Origin: Candidatus Chloroploca mongolica
GTDB lineage: Bacteria > Chloroflexota > Chloroflexia > Chloroflexales > Chloroflexaceae
Reading direction: 5' to 3'
Length of the DNA stretch: 64,000 bases
NCBI RefSeq assembly: GCF_004762035.2
Contig: NZ_SIJK02000034.1
Location: 1-64,000 of the forward strand
Position 1 is the stretch's first letter, and every line of letters begins with the position of its first letter. Below the pieces are notes generated by a model. The model saw only the letters and a program-made list of their open reading frames with translations. It ran no database searches and was not told the DNA's origin. Position numbers and translations under genes: made by a program. Below, piece by piece: positions 49,620 through 58,561 of the stretch.

Positions 49620-49648
49620 TTGACAATCCTCCATATCTGTGCTATGCT
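49620..49648 (+). promoter_or_regulatory. Strong sigma70 promoter of the lysine operon
   Basis: TTGACA (49620-49625), 17-bp spacer, TATGCT (49643-49648). It is the best promoter in the window by consensus. Transcription should start near 49655, ~37 bases before the leader peptide. Confidence 0.82.
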
Positions 49649-49691
49649 CTCGCGGTGTGTTGACTCGGTTGATTGTCGCGCTCAAGAAAGT

Positions 49692-49766
49692 ATGTTTGTG
49701 CCAATGTCCCTCAACTTCACAAAGCAGCTCAAGCGGGTGAAGAAGCCAGCCTTCCGGTCTGGTTAG
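49692..49766 (+). CDS. Lysine leader peptide
   Basis: 24 codons: MFVPMSLNFTKQLKRVKKPA then FRSG. It has four Lys codons in eight positions, the last two in tandem (49740-49745), and one Arg between. An inner ATG at 49704 is an alternative start. The ribosome site is weak (AAGAAAG). The last codons CGG TCT GGT form the antiterminator strand. Position between promoter and terminator in front of lysine genes fits a ribosome-mediated attenuator. Confidence 0.75.
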   Translation: MFVPMSLNFTKQLKRVKKPAFRSG

Positions 49767-49831
49767 CACCGCCTGCACGCGAGTGGAAGTGTAGGCCCGG
49801 CGCACCAGACCGATGGTGCGCCGGGTTTTTT
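49755..49831 (+). promoter_or_regulatory. Transcription attenuator (antiterminator/terminator)
   Basis: Terminator: CCCGGCGCACCA (49796-49807), loop GACCGA, TGGTGCGCCGGG (49814-49825), then T6. Antiterminator: CGGTCTGGT (49755-49763, end of the leader peptide) is complementary to ACCAGACCG (49804-49812), which holds part of the 5' arm and the loop. Both cannot form together. With enough lysine the ribosome reaches the stop codon, covers 49755-49763 and termination follows. Confidence 0.78.
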
Positions 49832-49854
49832 GTGTGTTCTTGAAGGAGAAGTCT

Positions 49855-49965
49855 GTGAAACAGTTCAAGCCGTCTGTCGTTGCCTATACGCCACGCTATC
49901 GCCGCCCGGAGTTGTTTGGAGCCTGTCAAGTGAGACAAGGAAGCACATTCTATGCAGTCGCATGA
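49855..49965 (+). CDS. Short ORF overlapping the homocitrate synthase start
   Basis: 36 codons from a GTG with a strong AAGGAG (49843-49848) six bases upstream: VKQFKPSVVAYTPRYRRPEL, then a short tail. The stop lies 14 bp inside the next gene, in another frame. It has no family I know and is basic and aromatic-rich. It may only serve to couple translation to homocitrate synthase, or encode a small protein. Confidence 0.45.
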   Translation: MKQFKPSVVAYTPRYRRPELFGACQVRQGSTFYAVA

Positions 49966-51079
49966 TCGGCCGTTGCTGGTTGATACGACGCTGCGCGAGG
50001 GTGAGCAGTTTGCGACTGCCCACTTTAGTAGCAGTCAGCGCCTCGCGATTGCCGAGGCTCTTGATGCCTTTGGGGTTGAGTATATCGAGCTGACTTCGCC
50101 CGCTGCTTCGCCGCAGAGTGCCCGCGACCTCGAAGTGATTGCCCGCCGTGGTTTGCGCGCTCGCATTGCAACTCACGTTCGCTGCCACCTTGATGATGCC
50201 CGCCTTGCCATTGAACATGGCGCCCAGGCTGTCCACCTGCTCTATGCTACCTCTGAACCACTGCGCCAGGCCAGCCATGGCCGGAGCCTCGACCAGATTG
50301 TCGAGGAGGCACGTGTGGTGATTGCGTACCTCCGTCAGTTTCCTGTTGAAATTCGCTTCTCTGCCGAGGATACCTTCCGCACCGATCTCCCCAGTCTGCT
50401 GCGGGTCTATCAGGCGGTCGCCGAACTCGGGGTACACCGGGTTGGCCTCGCGGATACGGTCGGCATTGCTACCCCGCGCCAGGTCTATGCGACGGTCGCT
50501 GAGGTGCGCGCTGCGGTGAATTGTGATATCGAGTTTCACGGTCACAATGATGCTGGCTGCGCCGTTGCCAATGCCTTCTGTGCGTTCGAAGGCGGTGCGA
50601 CGCACCTCGATGTGACGGTGCTTGGCATTGGTGAACGCAATGGTATTGCGTCGCTTGCCGGCATGGTTGCCCGTATGGCCTCGCTCGATCCGCAGATGGT
50701 TGCCCATTACGATGTGGCAATGTTGCCTGAACTTGATCGCATGGTTGCCGAGATGGTTGGGGTGACGGTGCCCTTTGACGCCCCGATTTCGAGCCCCTTC
50801 GCGTTCCACCACAAGGCCGGCCTGCATACCAAGGCGGTGATCAATGATCCGCGGAGCTACGAGGTGCTTGACCCGGCGCGCTTTGGACGTGCGCGCACGG
50901 TTGCGGTCGCCCATCGCCTGGTTGGTTGGCACGCGGTGGCCGAACGCGCCCGTGAGTTGGGCATCTATCTCAGCGAGTCGGCGGCTCGTCAGGCTGCCAC
51001 TCGGATCAAGACTATCGGCGATGACCACGAATTGAATAGTACTACCGTTGATGAAATTCTCTATGAATATGCGGAGTAG
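49952..51079 (+). CDS. hcs: Homocitrate synthase
   Basis: 375 aa, the size of Thermus homocitrate synthase and shorter than 2-isopropylmalate synthase, as the C-terminal leucine-binding domain is missing. LLVDTTLREGEQFA is the HMGL-like motif with the metal Asp, EFHGHNDAGCAVANAF gives the metal His pair, and the late HHKAGLHTKA is a second HMGL element. It condenses 2-oxoglutarate with acetyl-CoA, the first step of the alpha-aminoadipate route. Assignment over isopropylmalate or citramalate synthase is by length and by the LysW/LysX/LysY genes downstream. AAGGAAG precedes the ATG. Confidence 0.9.
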   Translation: MQSHDRPLLVDTTLREGEQFATAHFSSSQRLAIAEALDAFGVEYIELTSPAASPQSARDLEVIARRGLRARIATHVRCHLDDARLAIEHGAQAVHLLYATSEPLRQASHGRSLDQIVEEARVVIAYLRQFPVEIRFSAEDTFRTDLPSLLRVYQAVAELGVHRVGLADTVGIATPRQVYATVAEVRAAVNCDIEFHGHNDAGCAVANAFCAFEGGATHLDVTVLGIGERNGIASLAGMVARMASLDPQMVAHYDVAMLPELDRMVAEMVGVTVPFDAPISSPFAFHHKAGLHTKAVINDPRSYEVLDPARFGRARTVAVAHRLVGWHAVAERARELGIYLSESAARQAATRIKTIGDDHELNSTTVDEILYEYAE

Positions 51080-51083
51080 CCTG

Positions 51084-52376
51084 ATGCAGACGTTGAGTGA
51101 GCAGATCTTGAGCCGGGCAGCGGGACGCACGGTGATGGCAGGCGAGGTGGTGACGGTCGATGTAGATCTCGTGATGATGCACGATAGCCTCTCGCCGAGC
51201 ATTATTCGGGTGTTGCACGAGGAGTTGGGGGCAGAACGGGTGTGGGATCCCGAACGAGTGGCGGTGGTGATTGACCATGTTGCCCCTGCGGCGAGTGTGC
51301 AGACTGCCGAGAAGCAGGCCGACGTGCGTCGCTGGGTGAAGAGTCAGGGTATCCGCCATCTCTTTGATGTGGGACGTGGCATTTCGCATCCGGTGCTGGT
51401 CGAAGAGGGTCTGGCGCGCCCCGGGATGGTGATTGTCGGCAGTGATAGTCACAGTACCGCCTATGGCTGTGTCGCCGCTTTTGGCACGGGCATGGGCACC
51501 ACCGATATTGCGCTTGCGGCGGCGACTGGGCGCACCTGGTTCCGCGTGCCCGAGACGGTCCTTGTGCGCGCCGAGGGTCGCTTTCGCCCCGGTGTGGGCG
51601 CCAAAGACCTGGCGTTGTATGCCACTCGTCTGTTGCGGGCCGATGGCGCAACCTATGCGGCCGTCGAGTGGCACGGGGTGGAGTTTTTGTCCATTATGGA
51701 GCGAATGACGCTTGCGACGCTCTCGATTGAGGTCGGGGCCAAGGCGGGCATTGTGCCTCCGGTCTTTGCTGATCCAGGCGCGATCATGCCCCCGGCCCGC
51801 GCCGAGGTGCGTCGTCCCGCCTTGCAGCCTGACTTTTTGCAGGTACAAGAGGGTGCCCGCTACAGCCAGGTGTTGACGGTTGACCTGGATCGCCTCGAGC
51901 CGCAGATCAGCGCCCCGCATACGGTTGATAATGTCGCCGATTTGAGCGAACTTGGCCGCGTTGCGATTGATGTGGTCTACCTTGGCACGTGTACAAATGG
52001 GCATTACGAAGATATGGCTGCCGCCGCACGAATTCTGCGCGGTCGTCGGCTGGCCCCTGGTATGCGCATGCTCGTGGTTCCCGCAAGTGCGCAGGCGCTG
52101 CAGCGCGCTACCGCCGATGGCACCCTGATGACGCTGCTTGAGGCCGGCGCAACGATTGGCACCCCTGGCTGCGGCGCATGCATTGGTCGGCACATGGGCG
52201 TGCTCGCCCCCGGCGAGGTGTGTCTCTTTACCGGGAACCGCAATTTCCGCGGACGGATGGGGAGCCCGCAGGCCAATATTTACCTGGCCTCGCCCGAAGT
52301 GGCCGCCGCAACGGCCTTGACCGGCTATCTTACCCATCCTCAGGAGGTCGAGGCGAGTCTTCCGTCGCAGGTCTAA
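51084..52376 (+). CDS. lysT: Homoaconitase large subunit
   Basis: 430 aa from the ATG at 51084 (MQTLSEQILSRAAGRTVMAG) with CGGAG seven bases before. Longer starts lie inside hcs. It is a LeuC/aconitase-type protein: VGSDSHSTAYGCVAAFG, VVYLGTCTNGHYEDM and TPGCGACIGRHMG supply the three Cys for the 4Fe-4S cluster, and LFTGNRNFRGRMG the substrate-binding end. It dehydrates homocitrate and adds water to homoaconitate, as a complex with the small subunit. The operon places it in the lysine pathway; isopropylmalate isomerase is the alternative. Confidence 0.9.
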   Translation: MQTLSEQILSRAAGRTVMAGEVVTVDVDLVMMHDSLSPSIIRVLHEELGAERVWDPERVAVVIDHVAPAASVQTAEKQADVRRWVKSQGIRHLFDVGRGISHPVLVEEGLARPGMVIVGSDSHSTAYGCVAAFGTGMGTTDIALAAATGRTWFRVPETVLVRAEGRFRPGVGAKDLALYATRLLRADGATYAAVEWHGVEFLSIMERMTLATLSIEVGAKAGIVPPVFADPGAIMPPARAEVRRPALQPDFLQVQEGARYSQVLTVDLDRLEPQISAPHTVDNVADLSELGRVAIDVVYLGTCTNGHYEDMAAAARILRGRRLAPGMRMLVVPASAQALQRATADGTLMTLLEAGATIGTPGCGACIGRHMGVLAPGEVCLFTGNRNFRGRMGSPQANIYLASPEVAAATALTGYLTHPQEVEASLPSQV

Positions 52377-52475: not shown

Positions 52476-52535
52476 GAAACGTATTGGGCCTAAGGCCATT
52501 TCAGCAGCTAAGGCAGAGAAGAAAAGGAGATCGTG

Positions 52536-53036
52536 ATGGCTCGTGTCTGGATCTTTGGTCAGGATATCAATACCGATCAGATTGTGCCGGGACGTTATGC
52601 GCCCTATATGCTCAAGAACGAAGCCGATCTGCGCAACTATCCGTTTGTTGAGCACCGGCCCGATTTTGCGCCGGGGGTGCAGCCGGGGGATCTGATCGTG
52701 GCCGGCAATAATTTTGGGTGTGGCAGTTCGCGTGAGTATGCGCCACTCGCGTTGCGCCTGGTTGGTGTGGGCGCGATTGTGGCCCCGCTCTTTGCGCGCA
52801 TCTTTTTTCGCAATGCGCTCAACCTTGGCATTCCCTGTTTTACCGCCGATCTGACGTCAACCCTGCGTGATGGGCAAGAGGTCGAGTTGCGGCTGGAAGA
52901 GGGTTTGATCGTCACGGATGAGGGTCAGCACATTCAGTTGCCCCCGCCACCGGCCTTTTTGCGCGACGTCTGGGCTGCCGGGGGCATTGTGCCGTTCTAT
53001 CGTCAGTATGGGCGCTTTCCTGGTGAGGCCAGGTGA
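52536..53036 (+). CDS. lysU: Homoaconitase small subunit
   Basis: 166 aa from the ATG at 52536, six bases after AGGAG; the GTG directly before it is less likely. FGQDINTDQIVPGRYAPY and NNFGCGSSREYAPLALR are signatures of LeuD/aconitase swivel domains, then FARIFFRNALNLGIP. It forms the substrate pocket on the large subunit. LeuD-type small subunits differ in the loop after NTDQI (YLR in LeuD, YLE/RY variants in homoaconitase), consistent with the lysine role but not proof. Confidence 0.9.
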   Translation: MARVWIFGQDINTDQIVPGRYAPYMLKNEADLRNYPFVEHRPDFAPGVQPGDLIVAGNNFGCGSSREYAPLALRLVGVGAIVAPLFARIFFRNALNLGIPCFTADLTSTLRDGQEVELRLEEGLIVTDEGQHIQLPPPPAFLRDVWAAGGIVPFYRQYGRFPGEAR

Positions 53037-53053
53037 GAGAGGGGAAGCATCCT

Positions 53054-54055
53054 ATGCAGATTTGTGTGATCCCTGGTGATGGCATTGGGCCCGAGGTGCT
53101 TGGGGCTGCCGTGTGCGTGCTGCAAGCCCTGGTGCCTGAGGTGGTGTTGCACGAGGCTGACGCAGGCTGGAGCACTTTCGAGCAGCAGGGGGCGGCGTTA
53201 CCGGCGGCAACGCTCGCGGCGGCGCGTGCGGTTGATGCGATCCTTTTTGGTGCGGTGGCCTCACCGAGTCATAGCGTGCCGGGCTATCGGAGCCCGATTG
53301 TCCAGTTGCGCCGTGAGCTCGATCTCTATGCTAATATTCGCCCAGTGGTTGGCTTGCCAGGCCGCACGCCCGTCGATCTGGTGGTGGTGCGCGAAAATAC
53401 CGAGGGCCTCTATGCTGGCCGTGAGCGGCTGGAGGATGAGGGGGCTACGGCGATTGCCGAGCGGGTGGTGACCCGTCGGGCCAGCCAGCGCATTGTACAG
53501 ATCGCGTGTGAACTGGCGCGGCAGCGTGCCAGCGAGCGGGGTCGTCCAGGACGGGTGACGATCGTCCATAAAGCCAATGTCTTGCGGGTGAGTGATGGGC
53601 TCTTTCGGGAAACCGCGCTGGAGGTAACGCGAGCCTTTCCCGACCTGGTCATCGAAGAGCAACTGGTTGATGTCGCGGCGATGCGCCTTGCGCAGAGCCC
53701 GGAACGCTTTGATGTGGTGGTTACAACCAATCTTTTTGGCGACATCCTCTCGGATGTGGCCTGCATCCACGGCGGCGGGCTTGGTCTGGCCGCCTCGTCC
53801 AATCTTGGTGATCGCCAGGCGCTCTTCGAGCCGGTTCACGGGGCGGCACCTGACATTGCTGGTCAGGGCATCGCGAATCCTCTGGCGGCCATCACCTGCG
53901 TGGCCCTGTTGTTGACCCGGCAAGGCTATCGTGAGCAAGCAACGCGGCTGCGCAACGCCATCCGGCAGGTGCAGCACGATGGCCCGCATACCCCTGATCT
54001 GGGCGGAACAGCGCGGACTGAGCTGGTGACGCAAGCGGTGATGAGCTTATTGTAG
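53054..54055 (+). CDS. hicdh: Homoisocitrate dehydrogenase
   Basis: 333 aa from the ATG at 53054 (MQICVIPGDGIGPEVLGAAV), preceded by GAGGGG. A GTG at 53033 is in frame but overlaps lysU. Beta-decarboxylating dehydrogenase family: VRENTEGLYAGRE, the HKANVLR loop with the catalytic Lys, DVVVTTNLFGDILSDVA for metal and Asp ligands, and EPVHGAAPDIAGQGIANPLA for NAD. It oxidises homoisocitrate to 2-oxoadipate. Isopropylmalate and isocitrate dehydrogenases are close relatives; the operon decides. Confidence 0.92.
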   Translation: MQICVIPGDGIGPEVLGAAVCVLQALVPEVVLHEADAGWSTFEQQGAALPAATLAAARAVDAILFGAVASPSHSVPGYRSPIVQLRRELDLYANIRPVVGLPGRTPVDLVVVRENTEGLYAGRERLEDEGATAIAERVVTRRASQRIVQIACELARQRASERGRPGRVTIVHKANVLRVSDGLFRETALEVTRAFPDLVIEEQLVDVAAMRLAQSPERFDVVVTTNLFGDILSDVACIHGGGLGLAASSNLGDRQALFEPVHGAAPDIAGQGIANPLAAITCVALLLTRQGYREQATRLRNAIRQVQHDGPHTPDLGGTARTELVTQAVMSLL

Positions 54056-54287: not shown

Positions 54288-54322
54288 CCGCCAGTATGGC
54301 ACATTTGCAAGGAGAATCTCGT

Positions 54323-55174
54323 ATGCGTATCGGGGTGTTATGTTCACGGATTCGGGCCGAAGAGAAGTTGCTCTTTGGCGAATTGGAGCGGCGCGGGCTG
54401 GCGTATACCCGCATTGACGATCGCGAGCAGATCTTTGACCTGCATCAACGCGAGTATCCGTATGATGTTGTGCTCGAGCGCTGTATTCAGCATAGCCGGG
54501 CTGTCTATATGCTCAAGTTGTTGAACGACGCCGGTGTGCCGACCGTCAATACCTTTCATGTTGCCACGGTCTGTGGTGACAAAATGCTGACCACCCAGGC
54601 GCTGGTGCATGCCGAAGTGCCGACGCCGGGTTGTCGTCTCGCCTTTACCCCCGAGAGCGCTATCGCGGCCATCGAAGCGATGGGCTATCCGGTGGTGCTC
54701 AAGCCAGTCGTTGGCTCGTGGGGGCGCATGGTCAGCAAGATTAATGATCGTGATGCTGCCGAGGCCGTTCTGGAACATCGGGATGTACTGGGCAATTATC
54801 AGCACTCGATCTTTTATATTCAGGAATATATTGACAAACCGGGGCGCGATATTCGCTCGTTTGTCGTGGGTGATGAGTGCATCGGGGCGATTTATCGGGC
54901 CAGCGAGCACTGGATTACCAATACCGCCCGCGGCGGCATTGCGACCAATTGCCCGGTCACGCCCGAAATTGCCGACTTGAGTGTTCGTGCGGCGCATGCC
55001 GTTGGCGGTGGGGTCGTGGCGATCGATCTGTTGGAGACCGGTGATGGGCGCCTGCTCGTCAATGAAGTCAACTATACGATGGAATTCCGCAATTCAATTG
55101 AGACGACCGGGGTTGATATCCCGGCGCGCATCATTGACTATGTGGTGGCTGTCGGGCGAGGAGCAAGCGTATGA
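54323..55174 (+). CDS. lysX: LysX: alpha-aminoadipate-LysW ligase
   Basis: 283 aa from the ATG at 54323 ([20 protein letters not shown]), nine bases after AAGGAG. It is an ATP-grasp enzyme: [20 protein letters not shown] (nucleotide-binding Lys), [17 protein letters not shown], and [20 protein letters not shown] with the metal-binding Glu/Asn. It joins the Glu at the end of LysW to the amino group of alpha-aminoadipate. The stop overlaps lysY (ATGA). LysZ, LysJ and LysK are needed downstream and are not in this window. Confidence 0.96.
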
Positions 55175-56208
55175 CCTTGCGCGTGAGTGTCGTAGGGGCA
55201 AGCGGCTATGTCGGTGGCGAACTGCTTCGCTTGCTCTTATGGCACCCCGAAGTGGCGGTGATCCAGGCGACGAGCGGGCGTAACGCGGGCCGTTACCTTC
55301 ATCAAGTGCATCCCAACTTGCGTGGACGCAGCAAAGTGCAGTTTGTGCATCCTGATCGACTTGAACCGTGCGATCTCCTCTTTCTTGCGCTGCCTCATGG
55401 CGAGGCAGCGCAGGCGATCGAGCGGTACGCGGGGCTGGCCCCCAGGCTGATCGACTGCTCGGCGGATTTTCGCCTGCGCGACCCGGCGGTCTATGCCCGC
55501 TGGTATCGCGAAGAACATCCGGCCCCGGCCTGGCTCGACCGCTTTGTCTATGGCCTGCCCGAAGTGAGCCGTGAGGCGCTGCGGGGCGTGAACTATGCCA
55601 GCGGGGTCGGCTGCAATGCGACCGCGACCAACCTGGCCCTGCTACCACTGGTGCAGGCCGGGTTGGTTGATGAGCAGCGCCCCGTGATCGTCGAGATCAA
55701 AGTTGGCTCGTCTGAGGGAGGGGCCACATCGAGTGAGAGTAGTCACCATCCTGAGCGCGCCGGAGCGGTGCGCTCGTTTGCCCCGGTGGGCCATCGCCAC
55801 ACCGCCGAGGTCGAAATGGTCACGGGTCTGACCAATGTCCATCTCTCGGTTACCTCGGTTGAACTGGTGCGCGGTGCGCTCGCCACGGCGCATGTCTTTG
55901 CGAACCGTCCCGTCACCGAAAAAGATCTCTGGCAAGCGTACCGGGCCTTTGCGGCGACGCAGCCGTTTGTGCGGATCGTGAAAGAACGCCAGGGCATCTA
56001 TCGTTATCCCGAACCAAAGATCCTGGCGGGGAGCAATTTTGCCGATATCGGCTTTACCCTTGATGAGACAACCGGGCGCATCGTCAGCATCTGCGCCCTC
56101 GATAACCTGATGAAAGGGGCGGCAGGCAGTGCCGTTCAGTGCATGAACCTGATGGCGGGGTTTGTCGAAACCGAGGGCCTGGATTTCCCCGGGCTTCACC
56201 CGATCTAA
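55171..56208 (+). CDS. lysY: LysY: LysW-gamma-L-alpha-aminoadipyl phosphate reductase
   Basis: 345 aa, starting [20 protein letters not shown] with the NADP-binding GxSGYxG motif. The catalytic Cys lies in [15 protein letters not shown]; ArgC proteins usually have GCYPT here, while LysY proteins have GCNAT-like sequences, which supports Lys[15 protein letters not shown] holds the catalytic His. It reduces the LysW-bound acyl phosphate to a semialdehyde. Last gene of the lysine operon. It may also take part in arginine synthesis, as in some bacteria with a single LysY/ArgC. Confidence 0.93.
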
Positions 56209-56238
56209 GGAGTCTGTCAACGAAGCTTCCCGATGATT

Positions 56239-56266
56239 TGACGCAAAGGCGCAAAGGCGCAAAGGG
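56239..56266 (+). repeat. Dispersed CGCAAAGG-type repeat, copy 3
   Basis: tgacgcaaaggcgcaaaggc continuing with gcaaaggg: three tandem units, 30 bp after lysY. Confidence 0.7.
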
Positions 56267-56316
56267 TGTTCAGAGTGTATCGAGACGCCACATATGCGAC
56301 GGATGGCTGTGCGTGG

Positions 56317-56351
56317 CCTGGGAGCGCGGGCGGCCCGCCCGCGCTCCCAGG
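56317..56351 (+). terminator. GC-rich hairpin after the lysine operon
   Basis: cctgggagcgcgggc (56317-56331) and gcccgcgctcccagg (56337-56351) form a perfect 15-bp stem with loop GGCCC. There is no T tract. It has the look of a dispersed REP-like palindrome and may act as a 3' barrier for the lysine mRNA. The 56209-56437 stretch has no gene. Confidence 0.6.
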
Positions 56352-56437
56352 CTCGCAACCGTGGCATGCTGAGCGCTTGGGTGCCCCCATTTGCATGGTT
56401 CAGCCCCCCAAAATATGCAGTCACTACCCAATATGCA

Positions 56438-56466
56438 TTGCCTCTTTGCCCTCCTGTCACTATAAT
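56438..56466 (+). promoter_or_regulatory. Promoter of the kinase operon
   Basis: TTGCCT (56438-56443), 17-bp spacer, TATAAT (56461-56466). Lies 62 bp before the start of the kinase gene. Confidence 0.7.
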
Positions 56467-56527
56467 AGACACAAGTACACACCAGGGATGGCTCGAACAT
56501 GCTTTTTGCCAGTCAGCGAGGAACAGA

Positions 56528-58561
56528 ATGGGACTGATAAAAAAAGTCGGCACCCGAGGACTCGCCTCTTCGTCATCGCACGAGCAAACAACGCAACCAG
56601 CGGAAGCTATCGATAGCTTGCCGACGGATCTGGCGCAGGGTGGCGATACGCGCATCAATCTTGGCCAGCCGCAACCTACACCAGTCGATCAGTCTAGCCG
56701 GGATGCAGCTGAAGCACCGATGCATATGCTGTCACCTGGCAGCACGCTGCAAGAGCGCTATCAGATCATTGCACCGCTGGGCGTTGGCGGCATGAGTGTG
56801 GTCTATCGTGGTCGCGATCTGCGTTTCAAAGATGTGGCGCGCTACTGTGCGATCAAAGAGATGTCGCAGTCAGCCTCCGACTCGCATACGCGCTTGCTCA
56901 ATTTAAAGAATTTTCAGCGTGAGGCTGGCCTACTGGCAACGCTTCAGCATCCGGCGATTCCCAAAGTCTACGACTTTTTTGAAGAGCATAATCGTGTCTA
57001 TCTGGTGCTGGAACTGGTTGATGGCAAAGACCTTGAAGCCGTGCTCGATGAAGCTCGTGCCCCGCTTGATGAGCTTCGCGTCGCACGCTGGGCGATCCAG
57101 ATCTGCGATGTGCTGCACTATATTCACCATCATCAGCCCGAAACAATCGTCTTTCGGGATATGAAGCCATCGAATGTGATGGTGGATAGCAATGAGCGCA
57201 TTGTGCTGATCGACTTTGGGATTGCCCGTAATTTGAATCGCAGCGATCGCAAAGGGACGATGATTGGCACCGAAGGCTATTCGCCACCCGAGCAGTATCG
57301 TGGTCTTGCCGAGCCAGTTGGCGATCTGTATGCGCTTGGGGCAACGCTCCACCACCTGTTGACGGCTTCGGATCCGCGCCTTGAGACGCCATTTACGTTC
57401 CAGGATCGGCCCATGCGCCAGTTCAATCCAAAGCTCTCCCCCGAGATGGAACGGATTGTCGTGAAGGCGCTTGAGTATGAGATGGAGGCACGTTGGCAGA
57501 GCGCGGAAGAGATGAAGCAGGCGCTGATGGCGATCCCGGGGGTTGTGGCGGGTGAACGGGTTGTGGTGCCCACGATGCCAGCCGTGATCAAGGCGGCGGC
57601 CCAGACCGAGCTAGTCTGGAAATTTACCTGTGAAGATGAGTTGCGTTCGTCGCCCTGCGTCAGCGCGGGTACGGTTTTTATCGGCTGCTACGACACCAAT
57701 ATTTATGCCGTTGACGCCAGGCGGGGTGAGTTTCGCTGGAAATATGCCACCGAAGGCGGGATTAATTCTTCTCCAGCAGTCTGGGACGATAATGTCATTA
57801 TTGGCTCGGAGGATGGTGGGGTCTATTGCCTTGATGTGCGCCGGGGTGCGTTGCGCTGGACGTGCCGTACCGACAAGCCCATTCGCTCCTCGCCGCGGGT
57901 CGAGGATCGCGTTATCTTTGTTGGCTCGGATGATCAGCACATCTATGCGCTTGATGGCCTCCGTGGTTCAATCATCTGGAAATATCGTACCTGGAATCCG
58001 ATTCGTTCATCAGCATGTATCCAGGATGACGTCATCTTCATCGGCGGTGATGATGGCTGTGTCTATGCCCTTGATGCCCGGAGTGGGGCGGTTCGCTGGA
58101 AGCAGCGTACCCAGCAACCAGTGCGCTCTTCGCCGGTGTTTGCCGAGGGCCTGGTGATCGTTGGCTCGCTTGATCAGAATATCTATGGCCTGGATGCCGC
58201 AGGTGGGTGGCCGGCCTGGCGGTTTCGTACCGGCCACTATGTGAACTCTTCGCCGTATGTTGCTGGGACACGTGTTTTTGTCGGCGGTGTTGATGGGCTA
58301 CTCTATGCGTTGGATGTGAAAACTGGTCGCGTTGCCTGGAAATTTGAAGTCGGAAATCAGATTACCTCTTCACCACGCGTTGCCAACGGTCGTGTCTATG
58401 TGGGTGGGGTGGATGGCTATGTTTATTGTGTAGATGCCAACAATGGTACGTTGATCTGGAAATACAAGACCGAGGCCGCAGTTGTTTCATCGCCCTTTAT
58501 CCACGATGGAATCGTCTATATTGGTTCACTTGATTATAATCTGTATGCATTGAAGGCGTAG
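56528..58561 (+). CDS. Ser/Thr protein kinase with PQQ-type propeller
   Basis: 677 aa from the ATG at 56528 with GAGGAA upstream; the frame is open further 5' but runs through the promoter. Kinase domain (~75-345): PLGVGGMSVVYRGRD (G loop), YCAIKEMSQ (Lys), VFRDMKPSNVMVDS (catalytic Asp; Phe replaces His of HRD, as in several Chloroflexota kinases), LIDFGIARNL (DFG). From ~385 seven or so blades of ~40 residues follow, each with WKY-RT and SSP-V-VG-DG-YALD, a PQQ-like beta propeller. No membrane segment separates them, so the propeller is probably cytosolic. First gene of a kinase/phosphatase/VWA/FHA operon. Confidence 0.93.
   Translation: MGLIKKVGTRGLASSSSHEQTTQPAEAIDSLPTDLAQGGDTRINLGQPQPTPVDQSSRDAAEAPMHMLSPGSTLQERYQIIAPLGVGGMSVVYRGRDLRFKDVARYCAIKEMSQSASDSHTRLLNLKNFQREAGLLATLQHPAIPKVYDFFEEHNRVYLVLELVDGKDLEAVLDEARAPLDELRVARWAIQICDVLHYIHHHQPETIVFRDMKPSNVMVDSNERIVLIDFGIARNLNRSDRKGTMIGTEGYSPPEQYRGLAEPVGDLYALGATLHHLLTASDPRLETPFTFQDRPMRQFNPKLSPEMERIVVKALEYEMEARWQSAEEMKQALMAIPGVVAGERVVVPTMPAVIKAAAQTELVWKFTCEDELRSSPCVSAGTVFIGCYDTNIYAVDARRGEFRWKYATEGGINSSPAVWDDNVIIGSEDGGVYCLDVRRGALRWTCRTDKPIRSSPRVEDRVIFVGSDDQHIYALDGLRGSIIWKYRTWNPIRSSACIQDDVIFIGGDDGCVYALDARSGAVRWKQRTQQPVRSSPVFAEGLVIVGSLDQNIYGLDAAGGWPAWRFRTGHYVNSSPYVAGTRVFVGGVDGLLYALDVKTGRVAWKFEVGNQITSSPRVANGRVYVGGVDGYVYCVDANNGTLIWKYKTEAAVVSSPFIHDGIVYIGSLDYNLYALKA

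Follow-up and report, generated by a model that had tools for sequence, protein, structure and literature searches.

A probable lysine attenuator in Candidatus Chloroploca mongolica and its codon-swapped relatives across the Chloroflexota

The window analysed here, a 64,000-nucleotide stretch of contig NZ_SIJK02000034.1 from the photosynthetic bacterium Candidatus Chloroploca mongolica, carries a lysine operon in the order hcs-hacA-hacB-hicdh-lysW-lysX-lysY (Table 1). The gene upstream of the promoter is divergent, and the promoter and terminator therefore belong to the lysine operon. In the closest relatives, also Candidatus Chloroploca, a genome scan found hcs to be 98-99% identical. The lysine cluster closes with lysY, with no lysZ, lysJ or lysK after it (window 55171-58561); the next gene, judged by eye, encodes a Ser/Thr kinase with a PQQ-like repeat domain.

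The 701 bases searched contain a single consensus promoter (TTGACA/TATGCT, with TG preceding the -10 element), against 0.2 expected. The leader ORF has an ambiguous start (ATG at 49692 or 49704), and its translation itself has not been shown; four of its 24 codons are Lys, including the tandem AAGAAG. Between this ORF and hcs, the first structural gene, sits the terminator, with strands CCCGGCGCACCA (49796-49807) and TGGTGCGCCGGG (49814-49825) and T6 at 49826-49831. Regions 2 and 3 form an antiterminator of nine exact pairs, a length reached or exceeded in 27 of 20,000 trials in which the peptide-end segment was shuffled, and the leader folds more stably than its dinucleotide shuffles (z -2.5). 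Sequence and covariation analysis show that antiterminator helix and terminator are mutually exclusive, the bases they share being confined to the terminator loop and the four topmost bases of the 12-bp stem. Because this anatomy is conserved in relatives, we do not attribute it to chance.

Table 1. Positions of the leader elements, the second small ORF and the lysine genes in the window
Feature	Position	Strand	Remarks
Sigma-70-type promoter	49620-49648	+	-35 TTGACA 49620-49625; 17-nt spacer; extended -10 TATGCT 49643-49648
Leader peptide ORF	49692-49766	+	ATG to TAG, 24 codons, MFVPMSLNFTKQLKRVKKPAFRSG; orthologous Lys-rich leaders in relatives
Tandem Lys codons AAGAAG	49740-49745	+	Proposed stall site; tandem Lys recurrent in Chloroflexales hcs leaders
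Region 1	49746-49751	+	CCAGCC (most relatives CCGGAC); competitor for region 2; pairing over 30 leaders
Region 2	49755-49763	+	Antiterminator 5' strand CGGTCTGGT; inside end of leader ORF
Possible RNA polymerase pause site	49771-49775	+	GCCTG (most relatives GCTTG); function inferred
Hairpin between regions 2 and 3	49771-49796	+	GCCTGCAC (49771-49778) pairs with GTGTAGGC (49789-49796)
Intrinsic terminator	49796-49831	+	12-bp stem, 6-nt loop, T6
Region 3	49804-49812	+	Antiterminator 3' strand ACCAGACCG; terminator stem top plus loop
Second small ORF	49854-49964	+	VKQFKPSVVAYTPRYRRPELFGACQVRQGSTFYAVA; GTG start, AAGGAG upstream; overlaps hcs start; terminator on 5' side
Homocitrate synthase (hcs), first enzyme gene	49952-51079	+	TIGR02146 above cut-off
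Homoaconitase large subunit	51048-52376	+	True start probably 51084
Homoaconitase small subunit	52533-53036	+	NF010629
Homoisocitrate dehydrogenase-like	53033-54055	+	TIGR02088 just below cut-off
LysW carrier protein, 60 aa	54105-54287	+	CPECG motifs, sequence inspection
LysX ligase	54296-55174	+	TIGR02144 above cut-off
LysY (ArgC-like reductase)	55171-56208	+	TIGR01850, context

We compared the hcs genes and upstream DNA of 30 relatives from three families. A leader of the same type is present at all 30 lysine-pathway hcs loci, each with a leader ORF whose end closely resembles GGTCTGGTTAG and a terminator topped by CACCAGAC, and the promoter spacer is 17 nt in all 29 relatives with sequence covering the promoter. 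Lys codons in the relatives' leaders are AAG or AAA in a ratio of 84:16. Tandem Lys codons occur in 24 of the 28 scored Chloroflexales hcs leaders, and in 22 of the 28 they stand at a fixed distance of seven codons before the stop. A sequence-only reading of the locus had assigned the genes to LysW-type lysine synthesis and described the promoter, a 24-codon peptide with four Lys codons, a 12-bp stem with T6 and a 9-base antiterminator; the pathway assignment held (NCBIfam), as did the whole anatomy, all of it present in the sequence. It had also accepted that unconserved Lys codons and pairing would refute it; this was checked and is not the case, with tandem Lys, antiterminator, terminator and 17-nt-spaced promoter all recurring.

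Some relatives depart from the common layout. The start codon is 9 nt past the -10 element in L017-L019, L021 and L027, a distance from which we infer that their leader mRNA may be leaderless. The Chloroflexus-type leaders L017-L021 carry a degenerate, poor U-tract (GGGTCAATTGTTTG) behind the terminator stem.

In the alignment of the 30 leaders, the terminator covaries clearly, with 18 double-change cells (0 of 500 shuffles), and the antiterminator is paired in 95.8% of cells with two covarying pairs. The 1:2 hairpin is paired in 86-89% of cells in two registers; its covariation is weak, and it is weak in the window itself. For the hairpin between regions 2 and 3, paired in 78.8% of cells with both-side changes at three pairs, the support is moderate. 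An unguided RNAalifold analysis of 54 leaders (Lys, Arg and Gln) returned the GUCUGGU/ACCAGAC antiterminator as the sole consensus helix; here 96.8% of cells pair, with nine double changes (0 of 500 shuffles as high). Extension of the region 2-region 3 helix averaged 4.20 pairs within a leader versus 3.44 between leaders, a difference matched in 0 of 5000 permutations, likewise 0 of 5000 with one leader per genus. Kinship among leaders inflates covariation tests, and independent compensated cores were used as well: GGCUUGG/CCAGGCU (L009), GUCCGG/CCGGAC (L101) and GACUGG/CCAGUUC (L372, Acidobacteriota), with a covarying core change in L083 too.

Peptide conservation as the cause of GGT-CTG-G could be ruled out. 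In the Caldilineaceae the peptide ends in KPD and stops ahead of GUCUGG, and both GUCUGG and CCAGAC are still kept; selection thus acts on the RNA and not on Ser-Gly codons. Alternatively, the GUCUGG/CCAGAC core could mainly be a binding site for a trans-acting RNA or protein, such as an antiterminator or Nus-like factor, with the leader peptide merely coordinating. In its favour, Lys, Arg, Gln, Pro and Ala leaders all conserve the core far more than pairing demands, and the downstream GCUUG is conserved too. Against it, the core covaries where it is changed (in the four leaders just named), which favours pairing, and codon matching needs no factor; we regard this alternative as unlikely.

The common core (CCGGAC, GUCUGG, GCUUG, CCAGAC) with a terminator also precedes other genes throughout the Chloroflexota. 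A first covariance model (R1) found leaders in 78 of the 158 genomes of the class, with matches in further Chloroflexota groups including Caldilineaceae, Litorilinea and Leptolinea. A second model (R2), built from the 54 Lys, Arg and Gln leaders, found them in 65 of 400 genomes across the phylum and in 141 of 298 genomes of a second class. Genes downstream, identified with NCBIfam and Pfam, include argG, argJ, argC, proline--tRNA ligase, alanine--tRNA ligase, lysX and LysE-type translocators. Sensing codons match them: Lys with lysine genes, Arg with argG, argC and argJ, Pro with proS, Ala with alaS, and Gln with LysE-type transporters. Examples are MNPNPSPRLCRSTRSG before proS (L255), MLNVPFKHVNFAAAAQTASLVGIVA before alaS (L252) and MLPRRIRRSQPDDQSG, with AGG AGG codons, before argC (L312). 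The lysine leader precedes whichever lysine gene comes first, be it hcs, hacA, lysW or lysX.

Over 143 labelled leaders, an average of 3.58 codons in ten match the downstream gene, versus 1.75 with permuted labels (maximum of 5000 permutations, 2.22). Mean matches in ten are 3.68 for Lys (73 lysine-gene leaders), 3.89 for Arg, 2.89 for Pro, 3.0 for Ala and 3.1 for Gln, and non-Lys leaders alone score 3.47 versus 1.87 (maximum 2.50). The model covers the sensing codons by three bases at most, and the Pro and Ala leaders lie outside its training set. For LysE-type translocators the label Gln came from the leaders themselves, and the codon test is not independent for that class. It is very likely that the window element belongs to a family spread across the Chloroflexota, with a constant core and differing sensing codons, and this forms part of our main reading. 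In the genome of Candidatus Chloroploca mongolica, a pattern scan returned only the window copy, to which R2 adds a second attenuator before argG. This second copy lies at L226:262-353 (G000:C92:36761-36852) and carries Arg codons in MRLRRDRRTNFQSAFCPG.

To model switching we folded 41 leaders in ViennaRNA with masked ribosome footprints, the footprint being assumed. With the nascent RNA ending after region 3 and the ribosome at the sensing codons, the 2:3 helix has a median probability of 1.00, and antiterminator probability is near 1 in almost all 41 leaders under this modelled stall. With the ribosome moved on to the stop codon, its footprint masks region 2, and naked nascent RNA is split between 1:2 and 2:3. 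By coordinates and model folding the geometry fits, in that region 2 is left free by a stall and covered when translation ends at the stop codon. No switching was seen across the 41 leaders when each was folded whole at equilibrium: even with a stalled ribosome the terminator dominates the full-length fold (median P 0.94), and the switch must therefore be kinetic and cotranscriptional. A cotranscriptional decision is usual for attenuators; for the Chloroflexota leader it is an inference.

We conclude that the element is very likely (probability about 0.9) a ribosome-mediated transcription attenuator of the trp/his type that senses charged tRNA-Lys. Anatomy, conservation, covariation, codon-to-gene matching and stalled-state folding support this conclusion, and the trp/his-type model put forward in the sequence-only reading is to that extent supported by sequence. 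The stall, the kinetics, the pause site, the terminated transcript and the lysine response remain inferred, without transcript, reporter or ribosome-profiling data. Points against are the equilibrium dominance of the terminator, the limited stem disruption, the weak 1:2 covariation, the poor U-tracts of some relatives and the Gln leaders before LysE-type translocators, which run counter to simple starvation logic. On the attenuator model, RNA polymerase would start near 49655, followed by a ribosome that translates the Lys-rich leader. Under Lys-tRNA shortage this ribosome would stall with the second AAG in the A site, covering region 1 with its front edge at about 49755 and leaving region 2 free to pair with region 3 ahead of the synthesis of region 4; no terminator would form and the lysine operon would be transcribed. 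When Lys-tRNA is plentiful, a ribosome at the stop codon would cover region 2, the terminator would form and transcription would end near 49831. Without translation, the 1:2 hairpin could also hold region 2.

Two further alternatives are all but excluded. The first is a constitutive partial terminator behind an unregulated small ORF, with incidental Lys codons. It can draw on the dominance of the terminator in the equilibrium fold and on the absence of expression data, but it is opposed by the gene-matched codon enrichment, the antiterminator covariation and the fixed geometry between Lys codons and region 2. The second, a lysine riboswitch or T-box controlling the operon, would serve an equivalent function, and the leader does contain a terminator. 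However, the leader has no Rfam riboswitch or T-box match even at E 5 (lysine riboswitch RF00168 and T-box RF00230 included), for which reason we ruled this identity out, and its anatomy is explained by a codon-matched ORF with conserved pairing.

The attenuator may also include a pause site. GCUUG lies at a nearly fixed distance 3' of the 1:2 hairpin, with Pro and Ala leaders deviating in its position, and TG occurs at +12/+13 after GUCUGG in 86% of the 65 leaders of a first set and 49% of 65 later leaders, the latter selected with a model containing the GCUUG motif. In the window, U 49774 and G 49775 are 12 and 13 nt past the 1:2 hairpin. Hairpin-stabilized his and trp pauses have about 11 nt between hairpin and RNA 3' end, with Y-1 G+1. 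A pause at GCUU|G, between these two window bases, would hold RNA polymerase for the ribosome. This function is inferred without assay data, and we offer it only as a possibility.

Like the trp, his, leu, thr and phe attenuators of Proteobacteria, the leader combines a short ORF, tandem regulatory codons, exclusive 2:3 and 3:4 pairings and a terminator before the operon, with a less well supported 1:2 pairing as competitor, and the window leader has no match to the Rfam His, Leu, Thr, Trp or Phe leader covariance models. Proteobacterial attenuators are not known to share one sequence between operons, each operon having its own, whereas the Chloroflexota core is common to leaders for five amino acids; the Chloroflexota antiterminator also differs in lying mostly in the terminator loop. 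The hisS/hisZ leader peptides of Bacilli, which have no sequence similarity to proteobacterial leaders (Naville and Gautheret 2010, PMC2965389), likewise control aminoacyl-tRNA synthetase genes, as the proS and alaS leaders here would, but in another phylum and for another amino acid. Closest in versatility is the T-box riboswitch, a single scaffold that a codon change adapts to many amino acids and synthetase genes; it reads uncharged tRNA directly, whereas in the Chloroflexota leaders a translating ribosome would read the codons. The 2010 survey (PMC2965389) noted that, before its own Firmicutes finding, leader-peptide attenuation was known only in Proteobacteria and Actinobacteria, and a 2013 survey (PMC3766115) included five Chloroflexi and analysed Rfam motifs only. 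We found no description of attenuators in Chloroflexota in the open-access literature searched (subscription journals were outside the scope). The mechanism is of a known kind; a codon-swappable chassis across a phylum is likely to be new, there being no Rfam family and no paper in the literature searched.

Thermus thermophilus reportedly has a lysine leader peptide attenuator (Tsubouchi et al. 2005), which resembles the present one in its Lys-codon leader, terminator and AAA/LysW-type pathway and differs in lacking the GUCUGG/CCAGAC core. Thermus-type and Thermus-like loci carry the KK leader MLAR[AE]KKLGRRGVG with a different pairing sequence, and R2 found the Chloroflexota core in none of 111 Deinococcota genomes. 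The two leaders are thus unrelated in sequence, and homology was rejected; they may be convergent or may have diverged beyond recognition. Whether use of the mechanism is wide or convergent had been asked at the outset, and the existence of a Thermus-type KK leader, yet without sequence relation to the Chloroflexota core, is what bears on it. Missed at that stage was that the window leader belongs to a phylum-wide family also serving Arg-, Pro-, Ala- and Gln-linked genes.

In 199 Acidobacteriota genomes R2 gave six matches at E<=0.01, of which three or more are leaders of the Lys type at lysine operons: L370 is a true Lys leader before lysW/lysX, and the two matches ahead of hcs, L372 and L373, are degenerate leaders of the Lys type. 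L371 and L375 resemble chance matches, and L374 is unresolved. Acidobacteriota with a Lys attenuator before lysW/lysX or hcs are L370, L372, L373 and L338, one of them with the compensated core given above. In these cases operon and switch were probably acquired by horizontal transfer, unless the MAGs are misbinned.

A bolder reading, towards which we lean by a narrow margin, is that a single inherited chassis (region 1 CCGGAC, region 2 GUCUGG, hairpin-positioned pause GCUUG, region 3 CCAGAC, terminator) serves lysine, arginine, proline (proS), alanine (alaS) and glutamine-linked genes by codon swap only. The lysine operon and chassis would have passed to Acidobacteriota, and pairing would not be the only constraint on the core sequence, a second one coming, for instance, from a bound factor or from pausing of RNA polymerase. 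The general view is that leader-peptide attenuation arises anew operon by operon. A single scaffold that serves four or more amino acids with a clear codon match, and two aminoacyl-tRNA synthetase genes, throughout a phylum would be a ribosome-read counterpart of the T-box. The family allows regulons to be predicted from codons, suggests substrates for orphan transporters, and offers natural codon-swap experiments and a covariance model for an unlisted RNA family.

A second small ORF overlaps the hcs start. Its motif RPELFGxCQxR is present at 24 of the 30 hcs loci, and the family has 1684 synonymous versus 791 nonsynonymous codon differences (266 versus 2229 in the next frame). The ORF is under protein-level constraint, its role being undetermined; it might be an arrest peptide or a translational coupler. 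This constraint and the overlap with hcs would suit an ORF acting as the main regulator, for instance through an arrest motif RPELFGxCQ controlling hcs translation. Among the 30 loci, however, the ORF was not found in L026, and L028-L030, of other families, carry a different peptide; these loci keep the attenuator, and the terminator and antiterminator would be left unexplained. We hold a main role to be very unlikely; the ORF and the attenuator could act together.

Several leaders of the family stand before transport or synthetase genes. Gln-rich leaders precede LysE-type translocators in L088-L089, L092, L094, L096, L099, L103, L240-L247, L260 and L264, and Lys-rich ones do so in L079, L080, L084 and L087. 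Leaders with Gln, or in some genomes Lys, before exporters are unexpected under simple starvation logic, unless LysE-type proteins import or serve otherwise. Pro-rich leaders precede proS in L249, L254-L258, L262 and L265, often with a LOG-like gene between. Tandem pairs of Lys attenuators stand before lysine genes in L302 (G655:C10:2027 and 2441), L303 (G600:C43) and L314 (G505:C56).
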